Of a stretch of 64,000 bases of DNA, positions 55,866 to 64,000 are shown piece by piece (position 1 is the stretch's first letter; every line of letters starts with the position of its first letter). The notes under the pieces are model-generated. The model made no database searches, was not told the origin of the DNA, and was given only the letters and a program-made list of their open reading frames with translations. A program made the position numbers and the translations under genes. Source of the DNA: Adhaeribacter radiodurans (GTDB taxonomy: Bacteria > Bacteroidota > Bacteroidia > Cytophagales > Hymenobacteraceae); NCBI RefSeq assembly GCF_014075995.1, contig NZ_CP055153.1:5642001-5706000 (forward strand), read 5' to 3'.

Positions 55866-57143
55866 TTATATAATAAAATGATAAAACTCCGGCCGGTTAT
55901 TAATGTACTCGCAATTGAAGTTGCGCTCGGCCATACGTTGCACCAGCGCGTCAAAATCAGACGGATTTTTTAACTCAATTCCAACCAAGGCTGGACCTTT
56001 TTCCCGGCTGTTCTTTTTGGTGTATTCAAAGTGGGTAATATCGTCGGTGGGGCCTAAAATATCATTCACAAATTCTTTTAACGCCCCAGCCCGTTGCGGA
56101 AAGTTCACAATAAAATAGTGTTTCAGACCTTCGTACAACAGCGAGCGTTCTTTAATTTCTTCGGTGCGGGTAATGTCGTTATTTCCTCCGCTTACTACGC
56201 ACACCACAGTTTTTCCTTTAATTTCGTCTTTAAAGAAATCCAGAGCGGCAATACTTAAAGCACCTGCCGGTTCCACCACCATCGCCTCTTCGTTGTAAAG
56301 CTGCAAAATAGTAGAACATACTTTTCCTTCGGGCACTGTAATTACTTTATCCAGGTTTTCCCGGCAAATTTGCAAGGTTAAATCGCCTACTGCTTTTACA
56401 GCCGCACCATCTACAAACTTATCAATGTGGTCCAGGGTAATCTTTCTACCGGCTTCGATTGATTTTTTCATGGCCGGAGCGCCTTCCGGCTCAATACCAA
56501 TAAGAGTAGTTTCAGGACTTTCTTCCCGGAAATAACTAGATACTCCAGATGCTAAACCGCCCCCACCTACTGGTAGCAAAAGCAAATCAATTGGCTGGCG
56601 CATGGCTTCCAAAATTTCCAAACCAACCGTACCCTGGCCGGCCATAACCTGCGGATCGTTGAAGGGGTGAATAAAGACTTTATTATTTTTATTCGAAAAC
56701 TCCAGAGCCTGGTGATAAGAGTCATCGAAAGTATCGCCCGTAAGCACCACTTCTACGTGCTCTTTCCCAAATAATTGTACTTGTTTTAATTTCTGCTGAG
56801 GGGTAGTTACCGGCATAAAAATATGGCCTTTAATGCCCATTTTATGACACGAGTAGGCTACACCTTGCGCATGATTACCGGCACTGGCACAAACAACGCC
56901 ATTCGCTAATTGCTCTGAGGCCAGACTGCTCATTTTGTTATAAGCTCCACGCAGTTTGTAAGAGCGCACCACCTGCAAATCTTCGCGTTTCAGGTAAATA
57001 TTAGCCTGGTATTTTTCCGATAAATTTACACTCCTAAGCAGCGGCGTATGATTCACAACGTCCTGCAAACGGGCGGCAGCTACTTTAACATCCTCGGCGC
57101 TTATCAGAGTCGCCTTTTCTACCTCAACTTCTTCTTCCGACAT
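55866..57143 (-). CDS. ilvA: Threonine ammonia-lyase (threonine dehydratase)
   Basis: A PLP enzyme that converts threonine to 2-oxobutanoate, the entry to isoleucine. PLP lysine is in SYKLRGAY, the phosphate loop in GGGGLASG, and a single C-terminal ACT-like regulatory domain (about 330-420) points to the short form. The frame opens at 57200, but those 19 extra residues (NEQRVTNNEQ) are encoded by a low-complexity repeat copied inverted upstream, so the ATG at 57143 is preferred. It is the last gene of the ilv operon. Confidence 0.94.
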   Translation of the reverse strand: MSEEEVEVEKATLISAEDVKVAAARLQDVVNHTPLLRSVNLSEKYQANIYLKREDLQVVRSYKLRGAYNKMSSLASEQLANGVVCASAGNHAQGVAYSCHKMGIKGHIFMPVTTPQQKLKQVQLFGKEHVEVVLTGDTFDDSYHQALEFSNKNNKVFIHPFNDPQVMAGQGTVGLEILEAMRQPIDLLLLPVGGGGLASGVSSYFREESPETTLIGIEPEGAPAMKKSIEAGRKITLDHIDKFVDGAAVKAVGDLTLQICRENLDKVITVPEGKVCSTILQLYNEEAMVVEPAGALSIAALDFFKDEIKGKTVVCVVSGGNNDITRTEEIKERSLLYEGLKHYFIVNFPQRAGALKEFVNDILGPTDDITHFEYTKKNSREKGPALVGIELKNPSDFDALVQRMAERNFNCEYINNRPEFYHFII

Positions 57144-57145
57144 GA

Positions 57146-57277
57146 CTTTATTTAGTTGTTCGTTGTTGGTTACTCGTTGTTCGTTAGAATTTAATTTCAT
57201 AATAACATTACTACTCCTTAAAAGTAAATTCAGCCGGAAAGCAACTTTTATCTAAATCGAACAACGAACAACGAGTA
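57146..57277. repeat. Inverted low-complexity repeat between ilvC and ilvA
   Basis: TACTCGTTGTTCG (57171-57183) and CGAACAACGAGTA (57265-57277) are perfect inverted copies embedded in longer AACAACGAAC-type text on both sides. They could form a long hairpin in the ilvC-ilvA mRNA near the ilvA start. Confidence 0.5.
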
Positions 57278-57290
57278 CTAACAACTAATA

Positions 57291-58337
57291 TTAATTATTT
57301 TGTGGGCGCAGTTTACGAACCTGAGCGCCAGCTTGCCACATTTCTGAATCGCGTAGTTCTTTTAATTCAGCATCCAACTTTTCGCGGTAATCGGGCTGGC
57401 TGTTGGTATCGATAGAACGTTGCGCCTCTTGGCCAGTAGCTACGCTTTCGTATAATTCTTCAAATACCGGAGCTACGGCGTCGCGGAACTTGTTTTTCCA
57501 GTCTAATGCGCCCCGTTGAGCTGTTGTAGAACAGTTGGCATACATCCAATCCATACCATTTTCAGCTACCAGCAGAATTAAGCTTTCGGTTAATTCTTCT
57601 ACTGTTTCGTTGAAAGACTCTGATGGAGAATGGCCTTTTTTGCGTAACAGGTTGTACTGGGCTTCCAAAATGCCGGCTAAAGCACCCATTAACGTACCAC
57701 GCTCACCAGTTAAATCAGAATAAACTTCTTTTTTAAAGTCGGTTTCGAATAAGTAACCAGAACCTACGCCAATACCCAGAGCAATTACTTTTTCGCGGGC
57801 TTTTCCAGTAGCATCCTGGAAAACAGCAAAGCTGGAATTTAAACCTTTCCCTTCCAGGAACATACGACGTAAGCTGGTACCAGAACCTTTTGGTGCCACT
57901 AAAATTACATCTACATCGGTCGGCGGCACAATACCCGTACGTTCTTTGAAAGTAACGCCAAAGCCATGAGAGAAATACAAGGTTTTGCCTGGTTTAAGGG
58001 CATTTTTTACCATTGGCCAAGCAGCAATCTGGCCGGCGTCTGAAAGTAAGAATTGCAAAATAGTACCGCGTTCGCAGGCTTCTTCCAGTTCAAATAAAGT
58101 TTCGCCAGGAACCCAGCCATCATTTACGGCTTTTTCCCAGGTTTTTGAATCTTTCCGCTGCCCAACAATTACATTAAATCCGTTGTCGCGTAGGTTTAAT
58201 GCTTGGCCAGGACCTTGCACGCCGTAACCGAGTACCGCAATTGTTTCATTTTTTAAAACTTCTCTTGCTTGCTCCAAAGGAAATTCTTCCCGGGTTACAA
58301 CACTTTCTTCAGTTCCGCCAAAGTTGATTTTTGCCAT
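57291..58337 (-). CDS. ilvC: Ketol-acid reductoisomerase
   Basis: A 348-residue class I enzyme that isomerises and reduces acetolactate/acetohydroxybutyrate using NADPH and Mg2+. Rossmann loop GYGVQGPGQALNL, then VAPKGSG, DLTGERGTLMGA and the helical knotted C-domain with ESLNET-type sequence (PSESFNETVEELTE). The GQRKDSK stretch supplies NADPH-phosphate contacts. It is between ilvN and ilvA on the same strand. Confidence 0.96.
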   Translation of the reverse strand: MAKINFGGTEESVVTREEFPLEQAREVLKNETIAVLGYGVQGPGQALNLRDNGFNVIVGQRKDSKTWEKAVNDGWVPGETLFELEEACERGTILQFLLSDAGQIAAWPMVKNALKPGKTLYFSHGFGVTFKERTGIVPPTDVDVILVAPKGSGTSLRRMFLEGKGLNSSFAVFQDATGKAREKVIALGIGVGSGYLFETDFKKEVYSDLTGERGTLMGALAGILEAQYNLLRKKGHSPSESFNETVEELTESLILLVAENGMDWMYANCSTTAQRGALDWKNKFRDAVAPVFEELYESVATGQEAQRSIDTNSQPDYREKLDAELKELRDSEMWQAGAQVRKLRPQNN

Positions 58338-58547: not shown

Positions 58548-59111
58548 TTACAAATAAGCTTCTTCCTGTTCGCGCAGGTAAGTGCTTAAATCTTTCATGT
58601 GTTTGGTAATGGCAATGCGGCCACTACGGGTAAATTGCAGAATACCAAAGGGTGCTAACTTTTCGAATAATGCCCGGGTTTCGTTGCTGTGGCCCGTTTT
58701 TTCAATAATAATGTAGTTAGTATCCACCGTTAGAATTCGGGCGTTGCTGTCGCGCACAATTCCTTCTACCTGACTGCCATTAATCATGGAGCTCATTGGT
58801 ATTTTATACATCGCAATTTCCTGGAAAACGGTTTCTTCTTCCGGGTAAAACGAAGCCCGTAGCACATCTACTTGTTTTGCAATTTGTTTTACAAGCTTTT
58901 CTACTTGGGCAAAAGTAGTTTTAATAATAATAGTGTAGCGATACACGTTTTTCACTTCCGACTCTGAGACGGTAATACTCTCGATGTTGATATGACGTCG
59001 GGTAAAAATGATGGTGATGCGGTTAAGCAGACCAACTTTATTTTCGGTAAAGGCAAAAATGGTATACGTTTTTTCTTCGCCTAAATCTATCTGGTAATCT
59101 TCTATCGCCAT
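58548..59111 (-). CDS. ilvN: Acetolactate synthase small (regulatory) subunit
   Basis: A 187-residue subunit with an N-terminal ACT domain (about 15-90: FAFTENKVGLLNRITIIFTRRHINIESITVS) that binds valine for feedback inhibition, and an IlvH-type C-terminal domain (GHSNETRALFEKLAPFGILQF). It activates IlvB. It is 145 bp downstream of ilvB, with a hairpin between them. Confidence 0.95.
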   Translation of the reverse strand: MAIEDYQIDLGEEKTYTIFAFTENKVGLLNRITIIFTRRHINIESITVSESEVKNVYRYTIIIKTTFAQVEKLVKQIAKQVDVLRASFYPEEETVFQEIAMYKIPMSSMINGSQVEGIVRDSNARILTVDTNYIIIEKTGHSNETRALFEKLAPFGILQFTRSGRIAITKHMKDLSTYLREQEEAYL

Positions 59112-59256: not shown

Positions 59257-61002
59257 TTAGGATAAGCGAATATTAGCTACGGAGTCGCCGGCTGGCACCA
59301 TGGGAAACACGTTATCTTCCTTCTCTACTACTACTTCCAATACATACGGCCCTTCGTGGTCGAGCATGGCTTGAATAGAGTCTTGCAGATTTTCCCGTTC
59401 GGTTACTTTACTGGCAGCAATACCATAAGCTTTGGCAATACCCACAAAATCCGGGTTTACCATTTCGGTAAAGGAGTAGCGTTTCTGGTGGAATAATTGC
59501 TGCCACTGGCGTACCATGCCTAAAAAGTTATTATTTAAAATCAGCACTTTTACCCCAATCTGGTACTGAAAAATACAACCTAACTCTTGCAAGGTCATCT
59601 GGAAACCACCATCGCCAATAACCGCAATTACCTGGCGATCGGGAGCTCCTACTTTAGCACCCATAGCGGCGGGCAAACAGAAACCCATGGTTCCTAAACC
59701 ACCAGATGTTATGTTGCTGCGACGGATATCTTTAAAATTGTAATAGCGCATGGCTGTCATTTGGTGCTGACCCACATCGGTAACAAGCACCGCCTGGCCT
59801 TCTGATAACTCTGAAACCTGATGAATTACTTCGGCCATTTTTAACTTTCCTTCTGTTGGAAGTATTTCAGGGGCCATTACTTTTTCGTACTCAATTTTAG
59901 CACATTCGTTAAATTTCTGTAACCAGGCTTCGTGCTTGTTTTCGTTTACTAAAGGCAAAAGTGCTTGCAAGGCCGCTTTGGCATCTGCATTTACAGCTAC
60001 ATCTACCCGAATATTTTTATTTATTTCGGCTGGATCAATCTCAATATGAATAATTTTAGCCTGCTGGGCATAACGCTTTAAGTCGCCGGTTACCCGGTCG
60101 TCGAAACGCATTCCTATAGCAATTAAAACGTCGCACTCATTTGTTAATAAGTTAGGCCCGTAATTACCGTGCATACCCAGCATACCCACATTAAGCGGGT
60201 GGTCGGTAGGCAAGGCCCCTAAGCCCAAGATAGTCCAGGCAGCCGGAATACCAACTTTTTCAATGAATGCCTGTAAGTCTTGCTGCGCATTAGCCAGTAA
60301 TACCCCTTGTCCCCAAAGCACATAAGGCTTTTTAGCATTATTAATTAATTCGGCGGCGGCAGCAATGGATTTTTCGTTCAGTTTAGGTACCGGGTAATAA
60401 CTCGAAATGCGTTTACATTTCTTGTATTCAAACTCGAACTTGGCATTTTGTGCGTCTTTGGTAATATCAATTAACACCGGACCCGGCCGACCAGAAGTAG
60501 CAATGTAGAAAGCTTTGGCAATAGCTTCAGGAATCTCTTCGGCACGGGTAACCTGGTAATTCCATTTGGTAACCGGCATGGTAACGCCTAAAACATCTGT
60601 TTCCTGGAAAGCATCCGTACCCAGTAAGTGCGAAAATACCTGACCAGTTATACATATCAGAGGAGTAGAATCAATTTGAGCATCGGCGATACCTGTAATT
60701 AAGTTGGTAGCACCCGGACCAGATGTAGCAAAACAAACTCCTGGTTTGCCAGTAATACGCGCGTAACCTTGGGCGGCGTGAGCGCCACCTTGTTCGTGGC
60801 GCACTAAGTGATGTTTTAGTTGATCTTTAAAGTCGTATAGGGCATCATAGATAGGCATAATGGCTCCGCCCGGATACCCGAATATCGTATCGACCCCTTC
60901 TTCGAGTAAAGAAAGCAACAGCCCCTGGGCTCCTGTTACTATTTTCTTCTCGGTTGCTGTTACCTTTTCCTTTTCTGTTGCCTCAGCTACTAGTGCATTC
61001 AT
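59257..61002 (-). CDS. ilvB: Acetolactate synthase large (catalytic) subunit
   Basis: A 581-residue ThDP enzyme that condenses two pyruvates, or pyruvate with 2-oxobutanoate. Catalytic glutamate in VRHEQGGAHAAQGYAR, ThDP/Mg motif GDGGFQMTLQELG with NNNFLG, and FAD-type central domain. Thirty N-terminal residues before GAQGLLLSLLEEG are non-conserved. It follows ilvD by 125 bp and precedes its regulatory subunit gene. Confidence 0.96.
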   Translation of the reverse strand: MNALVAEATEKEKVTATEKKIVTGAQGLLLSLLEEGVDTIFGYPGGAIMPIYDALYDFKDQLKHHLVRHEQGGAHAAQGYARITGKPGVCFATSGPGATNLITGIADAQIDSTPLICITGQVFSHLLGTDAFQETDVLGVTMPVTKWNYQVTRAEEIPEAIAKAFYIATSGRPGPVLIDITKDAQNAKFEFEYKKCKRISSYYPVPKLNEKSIAAAAELINNAKKPYVLWGQGVLLANAQQDLQAFIEKVGIPAAWTILGLGALPTDHPLNVGMLGMHGNYGPNLLTNECDVLIAIGMRFDDRVTGDLKRYAQQAKIIHIEIDPAEINKNIRVDVAVNADAKAALQALLPLVNENKHEAWLQKFNECAKIEYEKVMAPEILPTEGKLKMAEVIHQVSELSEGQAVLVTDVGQHQMTAMRYYNFKDIRRSNITSGGLGTMGFCLPAAMGAKVGAPDRQVIAVIGDGGFQMTLQELGCIFQYQIGVKVLILNNNFLGMVRQWQQLFHQKRYSFTEMVNPDFVGIAKAYGIAASKVTERENLQDSIQAMLDHEGPYVLEVVVEKEDNVFPMVPAGDSVANIRLS

Positions 61003-61127: not shown

Positions 61128-62831
61128 TTATCTATCGGTTACGCAACCTTCGGAGGCCGATGAAACCGTTTTAGCGTATTTATATAAAATACCCGAATTT
61201 TTGCGTAATGGCCGGGGTTGCCAGGCTGCCCGGCGTTTCGCAATTTCTTCTTCGCTTAAATCTACTTCTAAGCGATTGTTTACGGCATCAATGGTTATTT
61301 TATCACCATTCTGAAGTAAGCCAATCATACCGCCCACGTGCGCTTCCGGGGTAATGTGGCCTACCACAAAACCGTGCGTACCGCCCGAGAAACGTCCATC
61401 GGTAATTAAAGCTACCGATTTACCTAAGCCCGCTCCCATAATTAAAGAAGTAGGTTTCAGCATTTCGGGCATACCCGGTCCTCCTTGCGGCCCTTCGTAC
61501 CGAATTACTAACACATCGCCTTCTTTAACCTGACCCGATAAAATACCATCGTTGGCTTCAAACTCGCCGTCGAATACTACTGCGGTACCGGTAAAAACTT
61601 CGCCTTCTTTACCCGTGATTTTAGCAACCCCACCTTGCTCAGCTAAATTGCCATAAAGAATGCGGATGTGACCCGTTTCTTTTATCGGCTGATCCAGCGG
61701 CATAATTACATCTTGTCCTTCGGCCATGTCAGGCACATTTTCTAAATTCTCGGCAATAGTTTTACCCGTAACGGTTAAGCAATCGCCGTGTAGTAAACCA
61801 GCTTTCAATAACATTTTCATCACGGCCGGAATACCGCCAATTTTATGTACGGCTTCCATGTGGTACTTGCCACTGGGTTTCATATCGGCTAGTAGCGGGG
61901 TTTTATCGCTGATGCGTTGGAAATCATCAATGGTTAGATCTATACCCGCTGTTTTGGCAATCGCTAATAAATGCAATACCGCATTAGTAGAACCACCCAA
62001 AACAGTAAGCACCACCATGGCATTTTCGAAAGCCTTTTTGGTCATGATGTCCAAGGGCTTAATATCTTTAGCCAGAAGTTCCCGGATGGCAATACCAGCC
62101 TGCACCGACTCTTCGGCTTTTTCCGGGCTAATAGCTGGGTTAGAAGAATTATAAGGCAAGGTCATCCCCATTGCTTCGGCGGCGGAGGCCATGGTATTAG
62201 CGGTATACATACCACCGCAGGCACCTGCACCCGGACAAGCATGTTCTATTACACCTTTAAAATCTTCCGGCGAAATAGTACCGGCGTATTTTTCACCCAG
62301 CGCTTCAAACGCCGAAACAATATCTAATTTCTTACCCGCAAATTTACCGGCCGCATCGCAGTAGTTACCGGGGGCAATGGTACCACCATAAACCATAATA
62401 GCCGGACGGTTTAAGCGGGCAAAGCTGATCAGCGCACCCGGCATATTCTTGTCGCAACCTACCACGGCCACTACGCCATCGTAGCTTTGCGCATTTACTA
62501 CTGTCTCAATAGAATCAGCAATAAGATCGCGCGACGGTAAAGAATAACGCATGCCAGGGGTCCCCATAGAAATGCCATCACTTACCCCAATGGTATGGAA
62601 CACTAAACCAATTACATCCTCGGTGGTATTTACCCCATTTTTAACCAGTTTAGCTAAATCATTCAGGTGCATATTACACGGGTTGCCATCGAACCCGGTA
62701 CTCACCACCCCAATCTGGGCCTTTTTCAGGTCGTCGTTGCTTAAGCCAATAGCGTGCAACATAGCCTGGGCGGCCGGATTGGTTTCTTCCTGGGTAACGA
62801 GGTAACTGTAACGGTTTAATGTAGTACTCAT
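61128..62831 (-). CDS. ilvD: Dihydroxy-acid dehydratase
   Basis: A 567-residue Fe-S dehydratase that makes the 2-keto acid precursors of valine and isoleucine. Cluster cysteines are visible in VGCDKNMPG and [16 protein letters not shown]; the late [16 protein letters not shown] block holds the catalytic-loop serine. It is the first gene of the operon, 119 bp behind a terminator-like structure and a leader ORF, so its transcription is probably controlled by attenuation. Confidence 0.96.
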
Positions 62832-62949: not shown

Positions 62950-62983
62950 AAAAAAAAGCGCCACTCTGTTGAAGGAATGGCGC
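62950..62983 (-). terminator. Leader terminator of the ilv operon (attenuator)
   Basis: On the minus strand GCGCCATTC (62975-62983) pairs with GAGTGGCGC (62958-62966; one mismatch) around an 8-base loop, followed immediately by T8 (62950-62957). No gene lies upstream for it to terminate other than the leader ORF, and ilvD starts 119 bases further on. Confidence 0.8.
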
Positions 62984-63006
62984 CGAGTATATTTTATCAA
63001 AATAGA

Positions 63007-63081
63007 TTACACCATCCATCGTTTAGCGTCGATAATGACGCTAAGAATAATTCGGTTCAGGACAGATGAAGTAAATAACAT
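63007..63081 (-). CDS. Ile/Val/Leu-rich leader peptide of the ilv operon
   Basis: A 24-codon ORF (ATG 63079-63081, TAA 63007-63009). Ten of 24 residues are branched-chain: 4 Ile, 3 Val, 3 Leu, with the core RIILSVIID. AGAAGA lies 3 bases before the ATG, a rare Shine-Dalgarno-like sequence in this genome. The stop is 23 bases before the terminator stem. Composition, size and position are those of a leader peptide that senses charged Ile/Val/Leu tRNA. Confidence 0.7.
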   Translation of the reverse strand: MLFTSSVLNRIILSVIIDAKRWMV

Positions 63082-63868
63082 GAGATCTTCTTTCGGGTAA
63101 TTTGTTTGTTAAAGCGTCGCTAATGTAAAAACAATTTTTAAAAACCAAAAATTAAGATTTTAATTTCTATTCATTTTTTTGATTTCAGTTCGAAAATCAC
63201 AAAGTTTCAACTTAGTTTTATTTAAAATTTTACAACAAAAAAAATCATTTAAAGGAGTATGTTAAGAAATTTTTAAATTTTTAGCTTTCCTTTTGTAAAA
63301 TGATGAAAATTATAGAAATACTCTTTTAAACCAAACAACTACTCCCTGATAATCAGGCACAAACATTAATCTTTTACTATTTACCCCTATCTCCGAAAAA
63401 CTAAATCTTTCTGATTACAACGAATCGTATTTACCTTTCATATTGCTTAAAATGCCTTTCTTTATATAACCTACCCGGTTTACAACTTTATTTTAGTAGG
63501 AAACTTTTCTTCGCCAAAATTTTAGAAATTGGTGTTACCCAGATTTGAGCTTCTCCATTTATCTAATTTTTTCATTAACAGAAAAACTAAATTGCGGGAG
63601 TAAATTACCCTGACAAATTCCGGTTTTTTGCTTTTAGTAAGGGGAGTTTTATAACAATTTGCTTTTTGTTGTTAGACAGAACGTAATAAATTAAGTAACT
63701 GACTGAAAGTTTTGTTTACTTTGTTTTGAGATTTTGAAAATTATCGAGTTTCTTTCGCCTCGCAAAAAATTCAGGTTTTTAAATCTGGCAAAATCAACCT
63801 TATTCCATTATACTTTAACCATGTAGAAAGCAGCGTTAAAGTTTTTTTTAGTTTTTATAAACGTTCGC
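63082..63868. other. Divergent promoter region between the ilv leader and aspartokinase
   Basis: About 790 very AT-rich bases. It must hold the ilv and aspartokinase promoters, but I find no exact TTTG-N19-TAnnTTTG pair; TAATTTTTG upstream of the ilv leader is one base off. No leader peptide is evident for the aspartokinase gene. AGCGTCGCTAATG (63114-63126) partly repeats sequence inside the ilv leader ORF. Confidence 0.4.
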
Positions 63869-64000
63869 ATGATAGTTTTAAAATTTGGCGGTTCTTCGGT
63901 AAGTACCCCGGAGAACATCTTAAAAGTACTAGGAGTGGTAAAATCACATTCCTCGGTGCATGAATTAGCAGTAGTAGTTTCGGCATTTGGTGGCGTTACA
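63869..64000 (+). CDS. thrA: Aspartate kinase N-terminus (thrA-like), cut by the right edge
   Basis: The first 44 codons: MIVLKFGGSSVSTPENILKV, then VVVSAFGGVT. KFGGSSV is the ATP/aspartate-binding signature of aspartokinase. In Bacteroidota an aspartokinase starting this way is usually fused to homoserine dehydrogenase (ThrA), but the fusion part is outside the window, so the symbol is tentative. It makes aspartyl phosphate for threonine, which feeds ilvA; the divergent arrangement with ilvDBNCA fits. Confidence 0.85.
   Translation, partial: MIVLKFGGSSVSTPENILKVLGVVKSHSSVHELAVVVSAFGGVT

Follow-up and report, generated by a model that had tools for sequence, protein, structure and literature searches.

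A candidate ribosome-mediated attenuator before ilvD in Adhaeribacter radiodurans, and ILV-rich leaders, single and in tandem, in other Bacteroidota

In the window, by which we mean the whole stretch of 64,000 nucleotides of Adhaeribacter radiodurans DNA that was analysed, a short open reading frame (ORF) rich in Ile, Leu and Val (ILV) codons lies upstream of ilvD and is followed by a hairpin with a run of T. An initial annotation of this DNA had read the arrangement as leader-peptide attenuation. Does translation of this short ORF decide whether transcription enters the ilv genes, and is such a leader confined to one genome? Conservation within the genus and recurrence before ilvD or ilvE in relatives support the earlier reading, and the locus is very probably a ribosome-mediated transcription attenuator of ilvDBNCA that senses charged Ile, Val and Leu tRNAs, although the mechanism itself is one that we infer.

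The ilv operon and its leader

Gene identities were assigned with NCBIfam models, and the five genes presumably form one transcript, ilvDBNCA:

61128-62831, minus strand: ilvD, dihydroxy-acid dehydratase, first gene of the operon (TIGR00110, 742.7 bits, over cut-off)
59257-61002, minus strand: ilvB, acetolactate synthase large subunit (TIGR00118, 730.2 bits, over cut-off)
58548-59111, minus strand: ilvN/ilvH, acetolactate synthase small subunit (TIGR00119, 106.4 bits, over cut-off)
57291-58337, minus strand: ilvC, ketol-acid reductoisomerase (TIGR00465, 308.1 bits, over cut-off)
55866-57200, minus strand: ilvA, threonine ammonia-lyase (NF006390, 662 bits, over cut-off)

The whole neighbourhood is a Thr/Ile/Val/Leu cluster. 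A gene for a bifunctional aspartokinase/homoserine dehydrogenase (63869-64000 of the window) is divergent from the ilv operon, and beyond the window (L262, G000:C2:5704700-5712600, where G000 is the window's genome) there are thrB- and thrC-like genes, recognised by eye, and a leuA-like gene (TIGR00973, below cut-off). An ILV leader before leuA was found in 0 of the 7 testable genus members, the eighth (L257) having only 70 nt upstream; this genome alone in the genus has a TTG-initiated ORF there, with at least 3 Leu in 7 codons, that precedes a hairpin.

Upstream of ilvD, the following elements were read:

63120-63150, minus strand: promoter-like element, TTTTGG (63150-63145) and TACATTAG (63127-63120), with a predicted transcript start at about 63113
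63007-63081, minus strand: leader ORF of 24 codons, peptide MLFTSSVLNRIILSVIIDAKRWMV, 10 I/L/V codons, kept in 8/8 genus members
63031-63051, minus strand: presumed control codons 11-17 (Ile-Ile-Leu-Ser-Val-Ile-Ile), with I or V at codons 11, 12, 15, 16 and 17 in 8/8
63023-63044, minus strand: internal hairpin over the control codons, TTAGCGTC-ATTATC-GACGCTAA, 8 pairs, of putative role, paired in 8/8
63010-63017, minus strand: antiterminator segment, GGATGGTG, which lies within the last leader codons and can pair with 62982-62974 (CGCCATTCC)
62957-62984, minus strand: intrinsic terminator stem-loop, 10 pairs, GC-rich, its left arm common to the antiterminator, 80/80 cells paired in the genus
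62950-62957, minus strand: T8 tract and predicted premature 3' end, T8 in seven of the eight genus members and TTTTATTT in the remaining one

The ORF extends from an ATG at 63081 to a TAA that ends at 63007, as the initial annotation had it. That annotation had expected relatives to keep a short ORF of constant ILV richness while its sequence drifts, and this is what alignment of the genus revealed. The ORF, the antiterminator segment, the terminator and the T-run are all kept in 8/8 genomes, the window's included, and the ilvD of the other seven is 86-98% identical to the window's. Leader length is constant at 24 codons, with 9 or 10 ILV codons in each of the eight, the residues at 2, 4-7, 9 and 10 vary, and codon 13 specifies Leu in 2 members and Phe in 6.

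The promoter-like pair TTTTGG...TACATTAG, which we take to resemble the Bacteroidota promoter consensus, has TACATTAG in 4 genus members and TACTTAG in the remaining 4. A Shine-Dalgarno (SD)-like AGAAGA had also been counted among the parts of the leader. This motif stands before the ATG in this genome only, the 7 other genus members having varied A-rich sequence at that place, and ribosomes of Bacteroidia are described in the passage cited as failing to recognise SD sequences (PMC9976891). For both reasons the SD element should be dropped; the feature that the eight sequences share ahead of the ATG is an A-rich stretch.

The peptide SVIIDAKR (codons 14-21, window 63019-63042) is invariant in 8/8 genus members, with 4 codons showing synonymous changes only, and the cause may be either the overlapping hairpin or a function of the peptide itself. 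Such invariance would be expected of a specific arrest peptide acting in place of tRNA-limited stalling, but most of the SVIIDAKR codons also encode the hairpin, and the peptides of other clades (see below) differ except in ILV richness. If the ORF were instead a reinitiation uORF, its stop codon would have to act over 117-198 nt to ilvD in the genus, which is long for reinitiation. An arrest peptide or a reinitiation uORF is thus very unlikely, and stalling for want of charged tRNA is the reading that we retain.

Two structural claims of the initial annotation, a strong terminator with T8 and an alternative pairing of 63010-63017 with the left arm of the terminator, were borne out. Terminator and T-run are kept in 8/8 genus members, and so is the alternative pairing (58/64 cells paired), the segment being GGATGGTG in five and TTAATGGTG in three members with its pairing to the left arm preserved. 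Energies across the eight members were -15.5 to -16.5 kcal/mol for the terminator and -11.3 to -15.4 kcal/mol for folds of the antiterminator stretch, and the fold of the 160-nt leader beat 200/200 shuffles (z -3.87). The claimed internal hairpin over the control codons held as a structure, nearly invariant across the 8 members, and its role is putative. Covariation in both hairpins, which the same annotation had named as further support, was not obtained: the stems are nearly invariant, and terminator and internal hairpin have 144/144 cells paired with no pair changed on both sides, so that covariation is uninformative in the genus, while a second clade yielded one both-sides pair change, no better than shuffles.

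A nearly invariant internal hairpin would also suit a riboswitch or a protein-bound leader in which this hairpin is the sensor. Two results make that reading exceedingly unlikely. First, no Rfam family exceeded its gathering score on the window leader (best 16.8 bits vs 46) or, with Rfam 15, on the leaders of 20 loci, two matches lying elsewhere in L024 and L028. Second, when 241 genomes of the order were searched with a covariance model that includes the hairpin (R1), the window's genome and G004, of the same genus, were the only strong matches; ILV ORFs, by contrast, are general.

The next R1 match was in G022 (E 9e-7), where it is a leader before ilvE. R1 matched 11/241 genomes at E<=0.01 and was rejected as a test of distribution, the other matches (E 8e-4 to 9e-3, two of them in the window's genome) resembling unrelated terminators. 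Of these weak matches, those examined (all but the one in G287) seemed to have no convincing ILV ORF; three had short ORFs with at least 4 ILV in 7 codons. A repeat or mobile hairpin was rejected as well: the hairpin 22-mer, searched with up to 3 mismatches allowed, has a single genomic occurrence, and the leader had no match among plasmid records.

ILV leaders before ilvD and ilvE in relatives

Other genomes were searched with a two-part detector: an ATG-initiated ORF, 8-40 codons long and holding 5 or more ILV in a stretch of 7 codons, within 400 nt before ilvD, and a hairpin below -10 kcal/mol with a T-run within 140 nt after the ORF. Counts use ATG starts unless stated. In the genus, the module was found in 8/8 genomes, against 0/8 reverse complements and 1/24 shuffles (0/24 when ATG, GTG and TTG were allowed). 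The other Bacteroidota contigs most similar to this ilvD (80, from which L023 was left out for its 34 nt of upstream sequence) had it in 26/79, as compared to 4/79 reverse complements and 2/237 shuffles; this set is not independent, since it holds many near kin (several Aquimarina and Tenacibaculum). Within the same family it was present in 18/82 genomes (reverse complement 0/82, shuffles 0/246), with G138 left out and 59/150 family genomes having no ilvD match at the cut-off. The phylum sample, 60 of 64 places (G196, G418, G451 and G375 left out) with 94/158 genomes lacking an ilvD match at the cut-off, gave 18/60 (reverse complement 2/60, shuffles 4/300); 13 of these 18 come from a single family, which supplies 15 of the 60 places, and three (L223, L226 and L227) are >90% alike. 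With ATG, GTG and TTG starts, the counts were 29/79 for the contigs (reverse complement 8, shuffles 5/237), 20/82 for the family (reverse complement 1, shuffles 4/246) and 8/8 for the genus (0; 0/24).

Leaders differ between clades, as in MKPFITIIIIIVVVIII, MRHRSVICFIVITPLPQGG and MLSTIISLVIIQVIIGEYRLGK, and are ILV-rich throughout; in other parts of the phylum, too, leaders of differing sequence but like composition precede ilvD or ilvE. ILV leaders occur in 70/229 ilvD upstreams, as compared to 0-7/229 when any one of ten other amino-acid triplets is sought instead; 159/229 ilvD upstreams fail the detector.

When an ilvE-like gene lies upstream of ilvD, the leader stands before that gene, in 14/14 contigs. 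Among other long ORFs in the set of similar contigs, 5/178 have such a leader, and 4 of the 5 are just upstream of an ilvB-like gene after ilvD. The 14 ilvE-like calls were made with a short motif that was settled on once the matches had been seen, a stricter first pattern having found 1; the one gene checked by a model, ilvE of G022, scored 272.4 bits with TIGR01122. With that protein as query, ilvE gave no match in the genus at E<=1e-40, a result that is uninformative on absence. In L087, whose contig bears the title Thalassovita sp. (MAG NP30), ilvD is accompanied by an ilvE-like gene that has a Bacteroidota-type ILV leader; the title may reflect a mis-binned record.

These distributions bear on the simplest alternative, namely that the hairpin is a plain partial terminator that lowers basal ilv expression, or yields a small RNA, and that the ORF is incidental. 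Such a terminator needs no ORF, and about one site of this kind is expected by chance in the region (1 found vs 0.9 expected in a terminator scan); an ILV-rich ORF of comparable kind arose in 62/2000 shuffles of the 281 nt before ilvD. ORF and terminator are therefore unremarkable singly, and it is their combination and its conservation that go beyond chance. An incidental ORF sits poorly with the retention of ORF, ILV content and segment in 8/8 genus members, with an ILV ORF and terminator before ilvD or ilvE in 40/79 similar contigs, in other sequences, and with the enrichment of ILV alone among the 11 triplets. We consider it very unlikely, and attenuation by a translated leader is the reading taken further here.

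A tree built from 57 ilvD proteins places the genus together with Saprospiraceae, Flavobacteriaceae and a few other sequences (branch 98/96) and apart from the 22 sequences of other genera in its own family (parting branch 90/85). Sampling was by similarity, with 27 of the 57 sequences drawn from the 80 similar contigs and a midpoint root only. A displacement of the ilv operon in this genus is possible, and the tree offers it as a lead.

Antiterminator position and a model of the switch

In an attenuator of this kind, a segment centred at the leader stop is what is needed, because a ribosome finishing the leader covers it. The best partner of the terminator left arm had its centre no more than 12 nt from the leader stop in 60/70 loci, vs 33.8% in shuffles; by set, this was the case in 8/8 of the genus, 22/26 of the contigs, 18/18 of the family and 12/18 of the phylum sample. 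Antiterminator energy was at p<=0.05 against shuffles in 43/70 loci (genus 5/8, similar contigs 10/26, or 9/26 in another calculation, family 17/18, phylum 11/18). Neither centring nor energy was among the criteria by which the 70 loci were selected.

The effect of a ribosome on the folding of the leader was modelled by masking in six of the eight genus members. The antiterminator had a probability of 0.92-0.99 for A-site positions from codon 8 to codon 18; it fell to 0.1-0.37 at codon 19 and to 0 from codon 20 on. A stall anywhere in codons 8-18 acts alike in this model, and control codons 11-17 are not singled out. With no ribosome, the antiterminator probability was 0.86 in the window and 0.31-0.96 in the six, at least 0.8 in 5/6. 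A protector (1:2) hairpin is present in the full-length minimum-energy fold and unfavoured in 5/6 of the partial transcripts modelled. Termination in untranslated transcripts through such a hairpin is not supported by the model, and since the ribosome-free model forms the antiterminator in 5/6, no protector hairpin is claimed.

The mechanism that we propose would operate as follows. Transcription would start about 30 nt before the leader ORF, with a ribosome trailing the polymerase. Given an ample supply of charged Ile, Val and Leu tRNAs, this ribosome would reach the stop codon and cover the antiterminator segment, the terminator would form, and transcription would end near 62950. When the charged tRNAs are scarce, the ribosome would stall on codons 11-17 and leave the segment free to pair with the left arm of the terminator, which would permit read-through into ilvD.

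Tandem modules and known attenuators

Two ILV leader-ORF and terminator modules stand adjacent upstream of one ilvE/ilvD operon, 131-231 nt from ORF to ORF, in 23/109 loci. Any two modules within 1500 nt were found in 26/109 loci, some of which have <1500 nt of upstream sequence, as compared to 1/109 reverse complements and 0/218 shuffles; three of the 26 (L003, L009 and L084) were set aside for modules that are far apart. The tandem loci are L014, L015, L018, L024, L025, L028, L036, L038, L041, L049, L057, L072, L079, L080, L085, L093, L097, L100, L106, L109 and L111, together with L016 and L065, each of which has one doubtful module. Examples include L024 (Bizionia arctica), L079 (Sinomicrobium oceani), L080 (Pedobacter) and L014 (Tenacibaculum caenipelagi), where a leader MKKQVLNIISIIIVIVIISQG is followed by MNQIFNIVVIIIVIISSPPS. 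In the same family as the window, the tandem form is present in 6/22 genomes (L093, L097, L100, L106, L109 and L111). For the 46 tandem modules, the antiterminator was at p<=0.05 in 32 and centred at the stop in 40. The window's genome has a single module, with no second one within 1500 nt upstream.

Leader-peptide attenuation has previously been inferred in this phylum, for Flavobacterium psychrophilum and for Bacteroid-trp. The transcript map of F. psychrophilum gave strong clues for leader-peptide attenuation before amino-acid biosynthesis operons (PMC9723704); the phylum and the class of operon are the same as here and the transcripts were mapped, and the passage cited names no operon. The small ORFs in a map of B. 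thetaiotaomicron are described, in the passage cited, as reminiscent of leader peptides (PMC7366714). According to the cited part of its source, Bacteroid-trp probably acts as a cis-regulatory RNA in Bacteroidetes (PMC2864571). Among 39 relatives it was matched once, at L173 (G163:C17:57307-57433), in a genome of the window's own taxonomic order: the match lies before a trpE-like gene and encodes a leader MKTMTGTKQWWWYVN (WWW), with a terminator-like hairpin behind it. We take the Bacteroid-trp family to be a leader-peptide attenuator, as the L173 leader also suggests. Both it and the present leader belong to Bacteroidota, but Bacteroid-trp uses Trp codons; the family (RF01692) was not found in the window's genome.

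Outside the phylum, the closest likeness is with classical ribosome-mediated attenuators such as that of ilvBNC in Corynebacterium (ilvB-II motif), which, in the passage cited, similarly has an ILV-rich short ORF, a terminator with a U-run and a competing antiterminator before branched-chain amino acid (BCAA) genes (PMC10272879). The leader described here differs from it in sequence and folds, heads ilvD, has a Bacteroidota host and shows neither a conserved SD nor an Rfam match at gathering score. Published tandem attenuators, among the matches listed, are mostly from Salmonella, with mgtCBR foremost. According to the excerpt cited, mgtCBR has two attenuators in one leader, as do the relatives described here, but they answer different signals, ATP and proline (PMC3641672), whereas both ORFs of the tandem loci are ILV-rich. 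In the open-access literature, ilvD, 'leader peptide' and 'Bacteroid-' were found nowhere together, subscription journals lying mostly outside the scope of that search.

Taken alone, the single locus is textbook biology in a new place. We lean, with less assurance than for the locus itself, towards a broader view in which BCAA attenuators of this kind are phylum-wide in Bacteroidota. Their constants would be ILV codons and an antiterminator at the stop codon, many lineages would stack two as a two-step gate for the same signal, the window's genus would keep a single one, and the ribosomes that read them would be largely SD-blind. The tandem form is the part that a specialist might find new, and it raises the question of how two like sensors in series shape the response. 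For annotation, the rule offered is to look for an ILV ORF and a terminator ahead of ilvE or ilvD. In ribosome-mediated attenuation a ribosome has to follow the polymerase closely, and a widespread attenuator combined with SD-independent initiation would make transcription-translation coupling in this phylum testable with one reporter.
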